Of a stretch of 25,574 nucleotides of DNA, positions 129 to 25,574 are shown piece by piece. A model generated the notes under the pieces. The model was not told the origin of the DNA. It worked only from the letters and a program-made list of their open reading frames with translations, and did no database searches. The DNA is from a virus. How positions within the stretch are numbered: position 1 is the first letter of the stretch; each line of letters begins with the position of its first letter. The DNA lies in IMG/VR virus record IMGVR_UViG_3300028608_000072, positions 1 through 25,574 of that record. One strand, given 5' to 3'. A program made the translations under genes and the position numbers.

Positions 129-473
129 ATGGCGTTATTCCCTGTGGTGGCTGGAAAGGTAAAGTTTGGCTGGACAGACCAGCCTACCCGTGTCGGCCAT
201 AATGGATTCATCCAGGAAGGCGATGCAGTATTCAACCCAAACATGCCCGTCATGGGTGATTACGACATGGGTATCGTCCGGTATTCGCAGGGGATCCCGA
301 CCGATGGCAATGGCTCTGTAGTGCTGACAGACGGCACTGCTGGCATTCCTGCAGGAACGAAATGGCAGAATGGCTTTCCGATCCATACAAAGGGTTTGGT
401 GACTTCTACCGCTGCTGTGGCCTATTGGGCTAACGGAATTCCCTTTGCTGCCTTGGGCGGGGTGTGCGTATGA
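129..473 (+). CDS. Small phage protein upstream of portal, function unknown
   Basis: This 114-residue protein is rich in Gly, Val and aromatic residues and predicted beta structure, with no signal peptide or membrane segment and no motif I recognise. The ATG at 129 has a good ribosome site (AAAGGA, 6 bases upstream). Its TGA overlaps the ATG of the portal gene as ATGA, so the two are probably translationally coupled. The setting between a probable packaging gene and the portal suggests a structural or assembly role. That is inference from position only. Confidence 0.75.
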   Translation: MALFPVVAGKVKFGWTDQPTRVGHNGFIQEGDAVFNPNMPVMGDYDMGIVRYSQGIPTDGNGSVVLTDGTAGIPAGTKWQNGFPIHTKGLVTSTAAVAYWANGIPFAALGGVCV

Positions 474-2650
474 AGCCCGAAGTTGTGGGAGTGACGGAAG
501 TTCAGGTTACCGTCGAGAGCACGGTAGAGATTGCCCGCAAATTCAAGGCGGAGCTTGAGCTTGCCAAGCGCAAAGACGAGAAATGGATTCGCCAGGGCAA
601 GCGGATCGTCAAACGCTATCGGGATGAGCGCAATACCAATACGGGTGGGGTCGGAGGCGTTCGGTTCAACATCCTCTGGTCGAACATTCAAACCCTGCTT
701 CCTGCGACCTATGCAAAGCCTCCGAAGGCTGAAGCAGAGCGCCGCAACAAGGACAACGACCCCGTTTCCCGCTGCGCATCCGAGATCCTGGAGCGCTGCC
801 TTCAGTATGAGATTGACCATTACCCTGACTTTGATGAGGCGTTGCGTGGTGCAGCGCTAGATCGTCTGTTGCCGGGGCGTGGTACAGCCTGGGTACGCTA
901 CGAGCAAAGGGAAGTGGACACGCCGCCTGATGCCACGATTGTGGCGCCTGGGATGCAGGCTCAAATCTCTCAGCCTCAGGTCAAGGAGTGCTCGGCCACC
1001 GATTACGTGTACTGGGAAGACTTCCGCTGCTCACCTGCGCGTGTGTGGGGGGAGGTGACGTGGGTTGCTCGCCGGGTTTACCTGACGCGGGACGAGCTGA
1101 AGGCCCGGTTTGGGGAGAAAATGCAAGCTCGGGACCTGAGCTACATGAACATCCCCTTAGTGAACGCGCCTATCGGCCTGGATCATCTGAACGAGAGCGG
1201 CGAGTATGGAGACACTGAATGCCTGAAGAAGGCTGAGGTGTGGGAACTGTGGGATAAGAAGACGCGGCGCGTTTACTGGGTTGCTGAGGGCTACGACGAC
1301 CTTCTGGATCTTACCAACGATCCGTATGGGCTGGACGAGTTCTGGCCGTGCCCCAAGCCTCTCTTTGCCACGCAGACGACCGACACTATCACGCCGGTTG
1401 CTGATTACGTGCTGTATCAGGACCAAGCGACGGAGCTGGATAACCTGACGCGCCGGATAGGCCTGCTGGTACAGGCCGTGAAGGTTGCCGGGGTGTATGA
1501 CGCCAGCGCGACTGGTGTGGAGCGCATGCTGAGCGAGTCGGCAGAGAATACGCTCATCCCGGTCAATAATTGGGCTGCGTTTGCTGAGAAGGGCGGAATT
1601 AAGGGCACGATTGACTGGTTGCCGCTTGAGCAGGTTATCCGGGCGCTGAACGAGTGCTATATGGCTCGTGAGCAGACCAAGCAGGTTATCTACGAGGTTA
1701 CGGGGATTTCGGACATTATCCGAGGTTCCACGCAAGCTTCGGAGACGGCAACCGCTCAGAATATCAAGCGCCAGTTTGGATCGCTGCGTTTGCGTCCGCG
1801 TCAGCAGGATATGGCAATGTTCGCCAGCGAGATCCTGCGCATCAAGGCTCAGTTGATGATGGACGTATACAGCCCAGAGACGCTGATTGCCATTTCGGGC
1901 ATTCTGGACACGTACGACGGCCAGTATGTTGAGCAGGCTATCCAGATGATGAAGTCTGAGCCGATGCGGGCCTACCGCGTGGAAGTGGCTGCGGATTCGC
2001 TGGTGGAGATGGATCAGGAGCAGGAAAAGCAATCGCGGGTTGAGTTTCTGACGGCGGCTAGCGGTTTCCTGCGCCAGGCTGTACCTGCTGCTGAGCAGAT
2101 CCCGGCATTGGCGCCCGTCCTGGGCGAAATGCTCATGTTTGGCGTGCGGGCATTCAAGGGTGGCCGCGAGCTTGAGGGCGTATTCCAACAGTTTGTCGAT
2201 ACGATGAGCCAGCCGCAACAGGATAAGCCGGATCCTGCCATGCAGAAGATGCAGGCCGACATTCAGATGCAGCAGCAGAAATTGCAGATGGATATGCAGA
2301 TCAAGCAGGCGCAGATGCAGGTGCAGCTTGAGGGTGATCGGGCCAAGGCTCAGGCAGATATCGAAGTGGAAATGGCCAAGGCGCGCATGCAGGCAGAGGT
2401 TGATATCAACCGCCAGCGCGCAGAAGCTGAGCAGCACGCGATGAAGATCCAGAACGAAGCAGAATTGCAGTCCCTGCGTTCACAGCTGGATCAGGCGAAC
2501 GAGCTGCGGCAGTTGGAATTCCAGCGCTGGAAGGCAGAGCTTGATGCGGCTGTGAAGGTTCAGGTTGCGGAGATCAGCGCGGAGAAGGGCGCGGAGAACG
2601 CGGCTACTGCTGCGGCTACGAACGAGATTGCTACTGAGGTGAGGCAATGA
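470..2650 (+). CDS. Portal protein (P22-like size and layout)
   Basis: A 726-residue protein, close to the 725 residues of the P22 portal. It forms the dodecameric ring at the packaging vertex, through which DNA is pumped in and to which the tail is attached. The N-terminal half carries conserved portal-like stretches such as FNILWSNIQTLLPATYAK near residue 65 and the central ITGISDIIRG-type segment near 420. The last 140 residues, from about 585, are a long Gln, Met, Ala and Lys-rich coiled coil, comparable to the helical barrel that P22 portal extends into the capsid. The ATG at 470 overlaps the preceding stop (ATGA). A GTG two codons upstream (464) is an alternative start. It heads the packaging and capsid block, followed by three coupled small genes, scaffold and major capsid protein. 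Confidence 0.93.
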   Translation: MKPEVVGVTEVQVTVESTVEIARKFKAELELAKRKDEKWIRQGKRIVKRYRDERNTNTGGVGGVRFNILWSNIQTLLPATYAKPPKAEAERRNKDNDPVSRCASEILERCLQYEIDHYPDFDEALRGAALDRLLPGRGTAWVRYEQREVDTPPDATIVAPGMQAQISQPQVKECSATDYVYWEDFRCSPARVWGEVTWVARRVYLTRDELKARFGEKMQARDLSYMNIPLVNAPIGLDHLNESGEYGDTECLKKAEVWELWDKKTRRVYWVAEGYDDLLDLTNDPYGLDEFWPCPKPLFATQTTDTITPVADYVLYQDQATELDNLTRRIGLLVQAVKVAGVYDASATGVERMLSESAENTLIPVNNWAAFAEKGGIKGTIDWLPLEQVIRALNECYMAREQTKQVIYEVTGISDIIRGSTQASETATAQNIKRQFGSLRLRPRQQDMAMFASEILRIKAQLMMDVYSPETLIAISGILDTYDGQYVEQAIQMMKSEPMRAYRVEVAADSLVEMDQEQEKQSRVEFLTAASGFLRQAVPAAEQIPALAPVLGEMLMFGVRAFKGGRELEGVFQQFVDTMSQPQQDKPDPAMQKMQADIQMQQQKLQMDMQIKQAQMQVQLEGDRAKAQADIEVEMAKARMQAEVDINRQRAEAEQHAMKIQNEAELQSLRSQLDQANELRQLEFQRWKAELDAAVKVQVAEISAEKGAENAATAAATNEIATEVRQ

Positions 2651-11934: not shown

Positions 11935-13308
11935 ATGGCACAGCGGAACACCGGTATGGGGCAGAACATGGGCTTTGGATCGCCCATGATGGCGCCTGAC
12001 ATTGCGCAGAAGCAATACCAGCTTGCTCAGCGCCAGGCCTATGCTCAGGCGCTCATGCAGCAATCGCAAGAGCCATTGCAGGGTCAGATGGTGGGCGGTC
12101 AATATATCGCACCGTCCTGGACTCAAGGGCTGGCAAAGGCGCTCGGAGCATACCTGGGCGCAAAGTCTATGGCCGACATGCCGCAACAGCAGATGGAGTT
12201 GCAGCAGATGCAAAACCAGCGCCTTGCGAGCCAGTTCGGCCTGGGGCAGATGGAGCCTCAAGGCGCGCAATCTTTCCCGATCTCGCAAGGAGGTCAACAG
12301 GCGCCACAACAACCCACAGGGATGGGGCAACCGCAGATTCCGTTGCTGCCCGGACGGTCGGCTCAAGAATCTTTCATGGTTGCTCAAAACGTCGGTCTTC
12401 CTGCTTACTTCAAGATGGTTGGCGAGCAGGGCAACACAATGACGGACATTCAGAAAAACTTGGTAGCCCAGGGCATTCAGCCTGGAACGCCGCAATGGAA
12501 TGCGGCCCTATCTGGGAACCTGGAGAAACAGAACTACATTGCCCCTCCGAGCGCTGCGCCAGGTGCAACGCTTATAGACCCGCGCTCAGGGCGTCCGATG
12601 TTCAACGCGCCGCAGAACGGGATGCAAATGCAATATGGACCAAACGGGGAAGCAATCGCTATCCCCGTGCAGGGCTATTCCGATATCACGGCTCAGCAGG
12701 AAGGCGCAAAGGCCCGCGCAGCAGCCCAGGGGAACGCGGCCTTTGATCTCGTTACGCAACAGGGCGCAAACGGGCAGGGCAAGACGTTCAACACCCGGGA
12801 GAATTTGGCTTTGCAAGCACAGGCAGGCAACCCCCCGATTGCAGAACAAGACCCGAGGGCAAAGAAGGCGGGTGAACTAATAAATCTCGCCAATGAGGCA
12901 AGGGGGATTCTGAAAGATGCCAGTAGCGGCGTGATCAGTGGCCTCAAGACGCAGGCAGCAGAGGCTGTCGGCATGAGTACGGATTCGTCTAAGGCGGATG
13001 CCCGGCTGAAGGTTATTTCCGGTCAGCTGGTTATGAACATGCCCCGTATGGAAGGCCCCCAATCGGATGCGGATCGTCTGCTGTATCAGCAGATGGCAGG
13101 CGATATTGCTAACCCGAAAGTCCCCCGAGAAACCCGGGAGGCCGCTCTACAAACGATTATCGAGCTACAGCAGAAATATACGCCACAAGGCCAACCCTCT
13201 GCTGCGCCTGGAGGAATCGCCGCGCCAAAAACTGCTCAGGAAATGCAGGCGCTACCTTCAGGCGCCTTGTTTCGTGCTCCTGATGGATCTTTGCGGAGGA
13301 AGCCGTAA
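11935..13308 (+). CDS. Gln-rich virion protein, probable ejection protein
   Basis: A 457-residue protein rich in Gln, Ala, Met and Pro. The first 110 residues are a Gln and Met-rich helix-forming part (AQKQYQLAQRQAYAQALMQQ). The middle, about 110-270, is Pro and Gly-rich. Residues about 290-420 are helical and charged. No enzyme motif is visible. It begins immediately after the previous TAA and ends in a TAATG overlap with the 803-residue transglycosylase gene. The trio of 281, 457 and 803 residues parallels the three ejection proteins of T7 (gp14, gp15, gp16) and P22 (gp7, gp20, gp16) in number and order, which is the basis of the call. Confidence 0.75.
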   Translation: MAQRNTGMGQNMGFGSPMMAPDIAQKQYQLAQRQAYAQALMQQSQEPLQGQMVGGQYIAPSWTQGLAKALGAYLGAKSMADMPQQQMELQQMQNQRLASQFGLGQMEPQGAQSFPISQGGQQAPQQPTGMGQPQIPLLPGRSAQESFMVAQNVGLPAYFKMVGEQGNTMTDIQKNLVAQGIQPGTPQWNAALSGNLEKQNYIAPPSAAPGATLIDPRSGRPMFNAPQNGMQMQYGPNGEAIAIPVQGYSDITAQQEGAKARAAAQGNAAFDLVTQQGANGQGKTFNTRENLALQAQAGNPPIAEQDPRAKKAGELINLANEARGILKDASSGVISGLKTQAAEAVGMSTDSSKADARLKVISGQLVMNMPRMEGPQSDADRLLYQQMAGDIANPKVPRETREAALQTIIELQQKYTPQGQPSAAPGGIAAPKTAQEMQALPSGALFRAPDGSLRRKP

Positions 13309-17547: not shown

Positions 17548-17820
17548 ATGAGACTTATCCCACAATGGCGGTTATTCTGGAAGTTCTGGTCGGTCCGCAT
17601 ATCCACCTTTGGGGTTCTGGTGGGCGGCTATTTTCTGGAGTTCCCGCAACATGCAATCGATATTTGGAACGCTCTTCCGGTTGATTTCAAGGCTGTCGTT
17701 CCGCCGAAATTCGTACAGTGGGCAAGCTACGCAATCATCGCAATCGGTATCCTCTCCAGAGGCATTCACCAGCCCAAGCTTAATCAGCCAGAACGGGATG
17801 ACTCTGATAAAGCACTATGA
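17548..17820 (+). CDS. Holin
   Basis: A 90-residue protein with two hydrophobic segments, at about residues 18-34 (ISTFGVLVGGYFLEF) and 56-72 (FVQWASYAIIAIGIL). It starts with the basic aromatic MRLIPQWRLFWKFWSVR and has a polar charged tail (PERDDSDKAL). The pattern matches small holin-like proteins (DUF7940-type) found just before endolysins. It would form membrane lesions that release the endolysin. A ribosome site (AGGAATAGGG) precedes ATG. Its last 23 bases overlap the endolysin start in another frame. Confidence 0.8.
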   Translation: MRLIPQWRLFWKFWSVRISTFGVLVGGYFLEFPQHAIDIWNALPVDFKAVVPPKFVQWASYAIIAIGILSRGIHQPKLNQPERDDSDKAL

Positions 17821-18250
17821 AAGCTGCAAGCTGGAGGCTTATAGGGATTCGGTGGGCATTTGGACCATCGGCTGGGGAACGACTAAGGGCGTCAAACCGG
17901 GTATGAAGATCACGCAGGCAGAGGCTGACCGCTTGCTGGCAAAGGATCTCTACGACGAATTTGAGCCTGGCGTGAAGGATGCAATCAAGGTGCCGTACTC
18001 TCAGGCCCATTTCGACGCCTGCGTGTCCTTTGCCTACAATCTAGGGGTAGGCGCATTCCAGTCGTCCACGCTGCTCAAGATGCTCAACGCAGGCAATCCT
18101 AAAGGCGCTGCGGATCAATTCAAGCGCTGGACACTAGCAGGCGGCGTATCACTCCTGGGGTTGCGCCGTCGGCGTGCTGCTGAGTCCCTGGTGTTCCAGG
18201 GTTATGACGCCAAGGAAGCCATTAAAATCGCATTGAGGGACACGAAATGA
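17798..18250 (+). CDS. Endolysin, GH24 (T4-lysozyme-type) muramidase
   Basis: A 150-residue protein that cleaves the MurNAc-GlcNAc bond of peptidoglycan. The catalytic triad pattern of T4 lysozyme (Glu11, Asp20, Thr26) is kept as Glu8, Asp17 and Thr23 in HYESCKLEAYRDSVGIWTIG. The usual Gly after the catalytic Glu is Ser here. Also present are the ISFAYNLG-type motif (VSFAYNLGVGAF) and the late block GLRRRRAAE. ATG 17798 is used because it starts the enzyme just before the catalytic region. The residues before it in the same frame (LISQNG) resemble family N-termini, so a longer protein starting at ATG 17651, inside the holin gene, is possible. There is no N-terminal membrane anchor, so release depends on the holin. 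It overlaps the holin by 23 bases and i-spanin by ATGA. Confidence 0.88.
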   Translation: MTLIKHYESCKLEAYRDSVGIWTIGWGTTKGVKPGMKITQAEADRLLAKDLYDEFEPGVKDAIKVPYSQAHFDACVSFAYNLGVGAFQSSTLLKMLNAGNPKGAADQFKRWTLAGGVSLLGLRRRRAAESLVFQGYDAKEAIKIALRDTK

Positions 18251-24377: not shown

Positions 24378-24476
24378 CTACCACCCCACAACGCACGCGA
24401 GCGGGATAATTAGGGTTGCGTAGTACCAGCGCATGGCCCAGGCGTTGTGCAGCATGTGCTTGAGGGCGGCTAGCAT
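24378..24476 (-). CDS. Tiny membrane protein (32 aa)
   Basis: A 32-residue frame: MLAALKHMLHNAWAMRW then a hydrophobic end (YYATLIIPLACVVGW). AAGGA lies 6 bases before ATG 24476, which overlaps the preceding gene by 7 bases. It fills the gap between two genes precisely. A single span without a charged tail, so it may be a small membrane regulator. Function unknown. Confidence 0.6.
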   Translation of the reverse strand: MLAALKHMLHNAWAMRWYYATLIIPLACVVGW

Positions 24477-24820
24477 GGCGGGTCCTTGTCGGGGTTGGGG
24501 ATGATGGCTATAGCCACAAATCCGCCGCGAGGAGCGTTCTCCAGCGCCGCAGCGCAACCGGCGACGTATGGTTTTTGCAACCGGTCAAGCGCTTCGGCAT
24601 TCAGGTAGGCCACCGGCTCCAGCGCCGCCAGAGCTTCGCGTACAGCCTGCTCGGCGTAGGCGGGAAGCGCATGGCACAAAGCTGCGTAAATGGCCGGCTT
24701 CAGATCGTTGAAGATCGGCCCCGGTATGGTGTGGGGAAGGTTCTCGATGAATTTCCAGCAAGCTTCATTGACGACACAACTTCCCAGGCTGGGCAACTCG
24801 GGCAGATTGATCTTGCTCAT
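24470..24820 (-). CDS. Small phage protein, first clear gene of the early operon
   Basis: A 116-residue protein. It opens with MSKINLPELPSLGSCVVNEA, continues with a helical part (AIYAALCHALPAYAEQAVRE) and has ALEPVAYLNAEALDRLQKP, a pattern of small phage accessory proteins. It ends near IAIIPNPDKDPPC. GGAG lies 7 bases before ATG 24820; upstream ATGs in the same frame lack a ribosome site. It is the first convincing coding region after the structured right-hand gap. Function unknown. Confidence 0.7.
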   Translation of the reverse strand: MSKINLPELPSLGSCVVNEACWKFIENLPHTIPGPIFNDLKPAIYAALCHALPAYAEQAVREALAALEPVAYLNAEALDRLQKPYVAGCAAALENAPRGGFVAIAIIPNPDKDPPC

Positions 24821-24849
24821 CGCAGTTCTCCAATCAGGTAAGACCCCGC

Positions 24850-24877
24850 TCTCCCCCGGCATACCCTGCACGGGAGA
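24850..24877. other. Hairpin next to the early operon start
   Basis: TCTCCC (24850-24855) pairs with GGGAGA (24872-24877), enclosing a small GCA/TGC inner pair set. It lies 30 bases upstream of the first early gene and could be part of its transcript leader. No T run follows on the - strand. Confidence 0.4.
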
Positions 24878-25010
24878 ATTAGGGGAAGAGGGGAACTTAG
24901 AAATGTGCCGGTTACGTCTCCGGCGCGGACTTCCACCGCCGTATTGATTCCGCTCGTCTGCTGCGTACGCGCTCGGCGCTGCACGCTCGTTGCGGTTCTA
25001 CTCGCTACAT

Positions 25011-25044
25011 CCGTGCCGATCCCCTTTTGGACCATGTGACACGG
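25011..25044. other. Nested hairpin
   Basis: CCGTG (25011-25015) pairs with CACGG (25040-25044). Inside it GATCC (25018-25022) pairs with GGACC (25029-25033) with one mispair tolerated as G-U on the - strand RNA. It forms a two-tier stem on paper. Confidence 0.4.
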
Positions 25045-25069
25045 CATCCGCTTTCGACAACCGGACTTA

Positions 25070-25122
25070 ACCCAGCCGGTGGGTGAGGGTGCCCAATCTA
25101 TTTCGGCAGACTCCCACTGGGT
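25070..25122. other. Nested inverted repeat ACCCAG...CTGGGT
   Basis: ACCCAG (25070-25075) pairs with CTGGGT (25117-25122), and TGGG (25080-25083) with CCCA (25113-25116), giving ten pairs with a CCGG bulge. A short inner TGCC/GGCA stem lies within the enclosed 29 bases. Confidence 0.45.
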
Positions 25123-25169
25123 CAAGGAGGGAACGGACGGGTGGATACCCGATCTGCCTTATTCACAAC

Positions 25170-25267
25170 CCTCAAGTCGGAACCCTGCTCTACTTGCTCC
25201 GGCACGTTGCTGGTTCAGGCATGACCAGCGCCTTCATCGCGTTCCCGATCAGGATTCCGACTTGAGG
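25170..25267. repeat. 13-bp perfect inverted repeat with an inner hairpin
   Basis: CCTCAAGTCGGAA (25170-25182) and TTCCGACTTGAGG (25255-25267) are perfect inverted copies. Three more pairs (one G-U on - strand RNA) extend the stem to 16. Within the 72-base interval, GCTGGT (25209-25214) pairs with ACCAGC (25224-25229). The outer stem plus inner hairpin looks like a folded RNA domain or a cruciform. Confidence 0.65.
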
Positions 25268-25313
25268 ACCCCGGGTTTCGTCCGGGAGACGGCCGACTGT
25301 TGCACGGCGCCAG

Positions 25314-25349
25314 GGAGATTTGGGTGGGGGTGGCCGGTGCTGAATCTCC
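25314..25349. other. Inverted repeat GGAGATT...AATCTCC
   Basis: GGAGATT (25314-25320) is the perfect inverted copy of AATCTCC (25343-25349), 22 bases apart. It is one of the series of paired segments in this region. Confidence 0.4.
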
Positions 25350-25402
25350 GGCTTGGTGTCAGACATGCCCGAGGCCCTTAACACCCGATTCCAATTCAAG
25401 CT

Positions 25403-25424
25403 ACTGCGCATCAGCACTGCGCAT
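25403..25424. repeat. Two direct copies of ACTGCGCAT
   Basis: ACTGCGCAT occurs at 25403-25411 and 25416-25424, a 13-base period, just outside the 16-bp inverted repeat. The related core TGCGC appears again at 25470. Two tandem copies could be a protein-binding site, but the number is small. Confidence 0.4.
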
Positions 25425-25430
25425 TCACCC

Positions 25431-25514
25431 CCAAGGATGCGGAGCCACCGGTACTGCTGTGGGACTCATGCGCTTTTTCGCGGAACGAATGAATAAAAGG
25501 CTCCGCATCCTTGG
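25431..25514. repeat. 16-bp perfect inverted repeat enclosing a 52-base segment
   Basis: CCAAGGATGCGGAGCC (25431-25446) and GGCTCCGCATCCTTGG (25499-25514) are exact inverted copies. On - strand RNA the interior can also fold: AUUCAU with AUGAGU, closing CGC-GAAAAA-GCG. The GC-rich 16-bp stem would be very stable. No T run follows on either side, so it is not a simple terminator. Confidence 0.75.
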
Positions 25515-25518
25515 AGGT

Positions 25519-25539
25519 TCAGGGCTTGCGCGGCCCTGA
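25519..25539. other. Hairpin after the right-hand partial gene
   Basis: TCAGGGC (25519-25525) and GCCCTGA (25533-25539) pair perfectly, seven pairs with a 7-base loop. It begins 5 bases after the stop of the - strand partial gene, where a transcript end would be expected, but no T run follows on that strand. It may act with the adjoining 16-bp repeat. Confidence 0.45.
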
Positions 25540-25544
25540 GCGCG

Positions 25545-25574
25545 TTACTTCACCTTCACCAGATTGCCGAAGTC
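25545..25574 (-). CDS. 3' end of a - strand gene (partial)
   Basis: Nine codons entering from the right edge read DFGNLVKVK and stop at TAA (25547-25545), followed by a hairpin. The regular reading and the following hairpin suggest the end of a real gene, but nine residues do not allow a function to be given. Confidence 0.45.
   Translation of the reverse strand, partial: DFGNLVKVK

Follow-up and report, generated by a model that had tools for sequence, protein, structure and literature searches.

GOLLD (RF02032) and ROOL (RF03087) are large structured RNAs that phages and prophages encode, often near tRNA islands. GOLLD assembles into a homo-oligomeric nanocage and is induced in lysis. A different kind of phage RNA is represented by the put RNAs of HK022, which are leader antiterminators made of two adjacent hairpins that bind RNA polymerase. 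Binding of GOLLD to ribosomes in pull-downs and its rise during lysis have been reported (PMC12286853), and the STnc100/Pas sRNAs of E. coli prophages (RF02076) were reported in Stx phages (PMC13192938, PMC12370729). The RNA described herein, like GOLLD and ROOL, is a large structured RNA of phages and prophages that is often found near tRNA islands; unlike them, it comprises several separate domains that phages exchange, and the hosts seen are Proteobacteria. The locus lies in a 25,574-base IMG/VR virus fragment, referred to in full as the window. Its setting resembles that of GOLLD in that the RNA is phage-encoded; no tRNA gene was called in the window, yet tRNAs lie beside homologous domains elsewhere. 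With permissive filters, neither the GOLLD nor the ROOL model matched positions 24600-25574 at E<=10, which bears out the caution over such kinship voiced in an earlier note on this DNA. The window RNA may be regarded as analogous to GOLLD and ROOL in setting and unrelated in sequence, with GOLLD as the nearest functional analogue, by analogy only.

A 36.7-kb contig (L006) is identical to the window over the 975 bases compared and reaches further. No convincing gene was found at 24821-25544, a non-coding gap of ~725 bases on the minus strand with a co-directional gene on either side, in agreement with the earlier note. The upstream gene is present as its 3' end (25545..25574, minus strand; stop at 25545, ...DFGNLVKVK*); all 56 of its codons including the stop (55 aa) are found in L006 at 11936-12103. 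The downstream gene (24470..24820, minus strand) starts with an ATG at 24820, has a GGAG Shine-Dalgarno sequence, and encodes a 116-aa protein (MSKINLPELP...) without a Pfam match. It opens a run of early genes on the same strand that includes ERF and SSB, which supports the "early operon" proposed earlier to lie behind the gap. In the structural part of the window, a 728-aa open reading frame (ORF) at 464-2650 (plus strand) had no Pfam match and is putatively portal-like by position, and a phage lysozyme (PF00959) is encoded at 17609-18250 (plus strand). A scan of the gap found no promoter-like site and no minus-strand terminator-like site, so the window RNA is probably part of a longer transcript in the source phage.

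The gap almost certainly encodes a real structured RNA, as the earlier note had proposed. Compared with dinucleotide shuffles, the minus strand folded with z-scores of -4.82 and -4.83 in two runs and the plus strand of the gap with -1.7 or -2.7, while 24 window controls of the same length had a mean of -0.16 and a most extreme value of -3.1. The relevant strand is the minus strand, co-directional with both flanking genes. The long inverted repeats claimed previously are also present, one at 25170-25190/25247-25267 (21 nt, 90% match) and the other at 25427-25446/25499-25518 (20 nt, 95% match), and homologues supplied the covarying pairs described below. By comparison with other loci, and from its fold and domain matches, this modular RNA occupies at least 24906..25518 (minus strand) of the gap, giving a length of about 610-720 nt. 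On comparative grounds, it is made up of at least three domains, A (25518-25325), B (25267-25082) and C (25081-24906). Domains A and B are built alike: a long variable hairpin is followed by the conserved GUGAAU motif, which opens a domain that a helix of its own closes. The whole is a mosaic whose domains are each distributed differently among other phages. Almost all of this RNA is absent from Rfam, novelty being judged relative to Rfam 15 and the searchable literature.

Domain A starts with a long hairpin, P0 (25427..25518, minus strand), whose arms at 25518-25499 and 25446-25427 form a 20-nt inverted repeat. Right after this first hairpin of the window comes GGUGAAUGCGCAG, the domain A motif, a close form of which occurs in at least 120 IMG/VR stretches. 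Elsewhere, too, a long helix of differing sequence precedes the motif (score of at least 12 at 46 of 118 motif sites versus 7 of 1180 random sites). The shared plan comprises the long hairpin, one strand of a closing helix (P1), a hairpin (P2), an insert that varies and mostly measures 30-160 bases, a second hairpin resembling a tRNA T arm (P4), and the other strand of P1. In the window, the body of the domain lies at 25325..25433 (minus strand), with P1 at 25433-25426/25332-25325, P2 at 25422-25419/25409-25406, and P4 at 25352-25348/25337-25333, as determined by a covariance-model match and covariation. The P2 and P4 loops are complementary and can form the kissing pairs GCUGA/UCAGC.

The helices of domain A and the contact between its P2 and P4 loops covary across phages. 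When the tails were permuted among phages, P1 averaged 5.1 pairs with a maximum of 5.4 (200 permutations), versus an observed mean of 7.4 pairs. At P2, tested with a search pattern that fixed one side only, T is the partner at 9 of the 15 sites with A as the first base. In alignment A4, which includes the kissing loops, 97.4% of cells were paired and two-sided changes were seen in 13 of 23 pairs, counts that come from related phages and do not represent independent events; none of 500 shuffles equaled the observed covariation, and slid structures came nowhere close. For example, both kissing loops are altered jointly in Shigella phage DS8, from GCUGA/UCAGC to GUCGA/UCGAC (pairs 19-206 and 20-205 of the alignment). 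A covariance model trained without the window (R2) matched the window at 67.3 bits, with an E value of 7.1e-16 in 248 kb and 2.8e-18 against the region alone, and P1, P2, P4, the GUGAAU motif and the kissing loops of this family were all found there. No Rfam family matched domain A at E<=0.5 in ten loci carrying it. A tRNA fold was rejected, as the covarying structure contains neither an acceptor stem nor a D arm. At one locus (L230, from 3950), the variable insert holds tRNA D-arm and T-arm sequences without an anticodon arm.

A further feature of domain A is that the strand just before GAAU (e.g., GUUGUGGUG) can pair with either of two segments, namely the 5' arm of the hairpin upstream or the tail beyond P4. 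Both pairings recur with different letters, and they are mutually exclusive over the last 6-8 pairs. These exclusive P1 pairings may represent a switch, a folding intermediate, or contacts between molecules. One short sequence of the domain occurs twice, in its 5' arm and again in its 3' tail.

BLAST located domain A in at least 85 sequenced phages (85 records out of 50,697) and in 54 of 5,426 E. coli genomes. Lambdoid phage HK629 and the Lederbergvirus IME10 carry it between Q/pR' and the holin gene, in the late leader, while Schitoviridae phage IME11 has it inside a 2-kb gap and the Ackermannviridae Klebsiella phage KP6 inside a 3-kb gap ahead of a tRNA-Met. It is also carried by the BASEL phages Bas77-80. 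In Aeromonas phage ST4, domain A is followed by B and then by three tRNAs, so that A precedes B as in the window. Genome surveys with the models yielded few copies, in 2 of 249 genomes at the family level for the Pseudomonas genome, 3 of 399 at the order level for the Herminiimonas genome, and 1 of 274 at the class level for the Aeromonas genome; surveys of more than 40 genomes use stricter filters that lose weak matches, so these prevalences are lower bounds. The genes adjoining the RNA vary widely from phage to phage, and no protein partner shared by these loci was found. The domains are swapped between phages like cassettes. RNA islands of this kind also hold STnc100, which matched above the cut-off in KP6 and below it in ST4; domain A differs from STnc100 in that it lies at a separate position in both phages, and STnc100 had no match in the window. 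The STnc100 matches, at L160 (1943-2051) and L289 (3519-3732), share their islands with domain A.

Domain B is likewise preceded by a long hairpin (P0, 25170..25267, minus strand), with arms at 25267-25247 and 25190-25170 that form a 21-nt inverted repeat. Equivalent helices of other sequence lie ahead of the GUGAAUAAGGCA motif in three contigs (L005, L007 and L008) and ahead of a variant motif, GUUAAUAAGGCA, in L160. The DUF3800-X model (RF02984) was rejected as an explanation of this hairpin, its score of 20.9 bits (E 0.19) being at chance level versus a gathering score of 38.2. The body of domain B (25082..25176, minus strand) is a divergent relative of Methylophilales-1 (RF03011), which matched it over its full length (model positions 1-103) at 52.1 bits and an E value of 6.6e-10 in cmscan with permissive filters; the score is below the curated gathering score of 79.9, so domain B is not a member by Rfam's own rule. 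This was the yield of the Rfam search with Infernal that the earlier note had advised; at curated cut-offs, nothing matched in the window. Like Methylophilales-1, domain B contains the conserved GUGAAUAAGGCA and AUAGAUU motifs and a covarying closing helix. Unlike Methylophilales-1 as described, domain B forms part of a longer RNA, as one of its domains, and has a long hairpin before it. The domain B motif is common to four contigs, including L006. The closing helix occupies the same place with different letters in the window, L005, L007 and L008; 7 of its 13 pairs show two-sided changes among these 4 sequences, a small sample that nonetheless gives a strong signal, and 0 of 500 shuffles reached its covariation score.

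Domain C, the 3' domain (24906..25081, minus strand), consists of a hairpin ACCGG..CCGGU, the element GAAAGCGGAUGC-[stem]-GUAGCGAGUAG, and a terminal core, as delineated from homologous stretches in Bordetella phages and in L136 (96%), L135, L014 and L102. No Rfam family matched it. By BLAST, the 3' part of the region is present in three Bordetella phages, in two of which a tRNA begins a few bases later. The element GAAAGCGGAUGC-[stem]-GYAGCGAGUAG upstream of the core is common to Bordetella phage PHB04, the window and Geminicoccus, and the sequence of its stem varies. The universal core (24906..24950, minus strand) reads ACG, hairpin H1 (GCGG-UGGAAGU-CCGC), hairpin H2 (GCCGG-AGACGUAA-CCGGC), and A. 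All of these were found in the window, which the core model (R1) matched at 70.6 bits, its training set containing the identical sequence via L006. H1 covaries in 3 of 4 pairs and takes the forms GCGG/CCGC, GUGG/CCAC, GAGG/CCUC, GCCG/CGGC and UCGG/CCGA. The letters of H2 were fixed by the search pattern; its compensated forms came up independently, GCUGG/CCAGC in L135 and L136 and GCCGC/GCGGC in L102 (Geminicoccus). In nearly all sequences, the ACG before H1 is complementary to a CGU in the H2 loop; as the letters are invariant, this is a possible, candidate pseudoknot.

The core has been seen in phages or prophages of Bordetella, Pseudomonas, Aeromonas and alphaproteobacteria. A 20-base signature of the domain C end was found in 52 IMG/VR stretches. 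An 18-base one occurred in 72 genome stretches; on inspection, most of these proved not to be genuine, the many chance matches in high-GC coding genes being recognized by their missing H1 and ACG. One locus of the alphaproteobacterium Geminicoccus (L102, 3951-4160) has two cores separated by ~160 nt, and a tRNA-like sequence lies in the interval. In two other loci (L053, 5671-5930; L018, upstream of the core), a repressor-like gene with its terminator is directly followed by a promoter-like site with repeated operator-like half sites, immediately past which the RNA begins. BLAST with the L018 type identified one phage, and with the L059 type none.

Transfer RNA genes are frequent neighbors of the RNA. 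Within 1.5 kb, tRNA or tmRNA genes are on the same strand as the RNA in 42 of 42 cases (26 of 26 for domain A, 16 of 16 for the core), and tRNAs are ~5 times as dense near domain A as elsewhere in these loci (26 in 267 kb vs 10 in ~540 kb), these counts including related phages and hence not independent events. Of the tRNAs further from domain A, 6 of 10 share its strand. In 75 of 89 domain A loci, many of which are short fragments, no tRNA was called within 1.5 kb. Pieces of tmRNA sit in the phage RNA islands of L004, L285, L286, L287 and L289. Bordetella phage PHB04 (L004, 1968-2339) has a permuted tmRNA with the tag ANDDYIRAAA; the tag frames ANDDVVLMAA in Bas80, DS8 and IME11 and ANDNTFLAVA in KP6 were not called by ARAGORN. 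Modular RNAs in L014, L133 and L101 hold hairpins that copy the tRNA-Thr anticodon arm (CCGGAUCUUGUAAUCCGG; CCUGACUUGUAAUCAGG). In L088 (1-110), a core-bearing RNA module is directly preceded by a tRNA-like body that has its acceptor, D and T arms, the anticodon arm being replaced. In two Bordetella phages, a Burkholderiales-2 RNA (RF02917) lies close to the modular RNA but on the other strand (L002, 1677-1750; L003, 1723-1796).

The best overall explanation, which we regard as probable, is that this is a trans-acting, mosaic, modular phage RNA; equally, the odds favor a trans-acting non-coding RNA rather than a cis element. The RNA would be read along the minus strand within an early transcript, as the ERF and SSB genes that follow suggest, and would be cut out of its precursor. 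In several loci, a tRNA starts ~7 nt past the core, and RNase P cleavage there would free the 3' end. The freed RNA might act in trans as an RNA scaffold or a tRNA-like decoy. Its most likely arena would be translation or tRNA metabolism during infection, and a role linked to translation or tRNAs is our leading, albeit tentative, guess. The constant motifs would provide the frame, while what differs between phages would be the variable hairpins and inserts. More broadly, there may be, at a similarly tentative level, a hitherto undescribed superfamily of mosaic RNAs in which a constant frame is combined with interchangeable hypervariable parts, a phage-made machine acting on the host translation/tRNA system. 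The frame would consist of the GUGAAU motif, the kissing P2-P4 hairpins, T-arm-like ends and the 3' core, and would be inherited with phage tRNAs and tmRNA pieces by temperate and lytic phages of Proteobacteria.

A more specific form of the trans-acting reading, to which we assign a rather low probability, is a tRNA-like decoy or counter-defense RNA whose tRNA-like arms would capture tRNA-directed nucleases or modifying enzymes of the host and thereby shield the phage. It is suggested by the tRNAs and tmRNA pieces on the same strand, by T-arm-like hairpins (GCCGG-AGAUCAGCA-CCGGC-CACC), by the anticodon-arm-like CCGGAUCUUGUAAUCCGG in L014 and L133, and by the altered tRNA-like body of L088 and the D- and T-arm remnants in the L230 insert; a constant frame with variable parts would also fit an arms race. 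However, the fold of domain A is not that of a tRNA, and no defense system or target was identified.

Somewhat less probable still is a cis-acting leader or antiterminator, in which the nascent RNA folds and affects how the operon behind it, early or late, is transcribed or translated, in the manner of the HK022 put RNAs. The window RNA precedes early genes and lies between co-directional genes, so a cis role is conceivable there; domain A of HK629 and IME10 lies within the late leader, from Q/pR' to holin; and the Aeromonas-type loci (L053, L018) start the RNA just past a promoter-like site with operator-like repeats. The core, moreover, has two adjacent hairpins, as does put RNA. Nonetheless, the put RNA of HK022 is an operon leader, whereas many copies of the present RNA are not, and the core model had no match in a partial HK022 stretch (L132, 25000-34000), for which the positions of the put sites were not established. 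The RNA of Bas80 and DS8 runs antisense to structural genes and lies downstream of a promoter-like TTGACA-17-TAGATT, which scores 10/12 in the DS8 scan and is identical in Bas80; no sense gene is annotated directly behind it in either phage, and in Bas80, where no sense coding gene adjoins it, it runs into a tRNA-Met. As the RNA is antisense to its neighbors in at least these two phages, it is not generally a cis leader, and the variability of neighboring genes between phages also speaks against such a role.

An element acting at the DNA level through its hairpins, such as a replication origin, a recombination hot spot or transposon ends, would account for the long inverted repeats, the mosaic spread, and the short sequence shared by the 5' arm and 3' tail of domain A, but it is very improbable and was rejected, since loop-loop contacts covary, G-U pairs are present, the fold is biased to one strand in the window, and the orientation to tRNAs is fixed (42/42). 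A hidden protein gene, least credible of all, was dismissed as well: the region is crossed by several ORFs (60-102 aa), but these occur on either strand, insertions and whole-module replacement distinguish the homologous RNAs, and the hypothetical proteins annotated there in some records are inconsistent.

Large phage RNAs such as GOLLD and ROOL are known yet unexplained, and most work on them has used phages other than the standard laboratory ones. The tractable E. coli phages HK629, IME10 and BASEL Bas77-80 carry domain A without annotation, which makes RNAs of this type directly testable for function. The covariance models can be used to annotate unexplained gaps beside phage tRNA islands. 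Our findings also suggest that Methylophilales-1 is a piece of a larger mosaic RNA, and the same may hold for other orphan RNA families.
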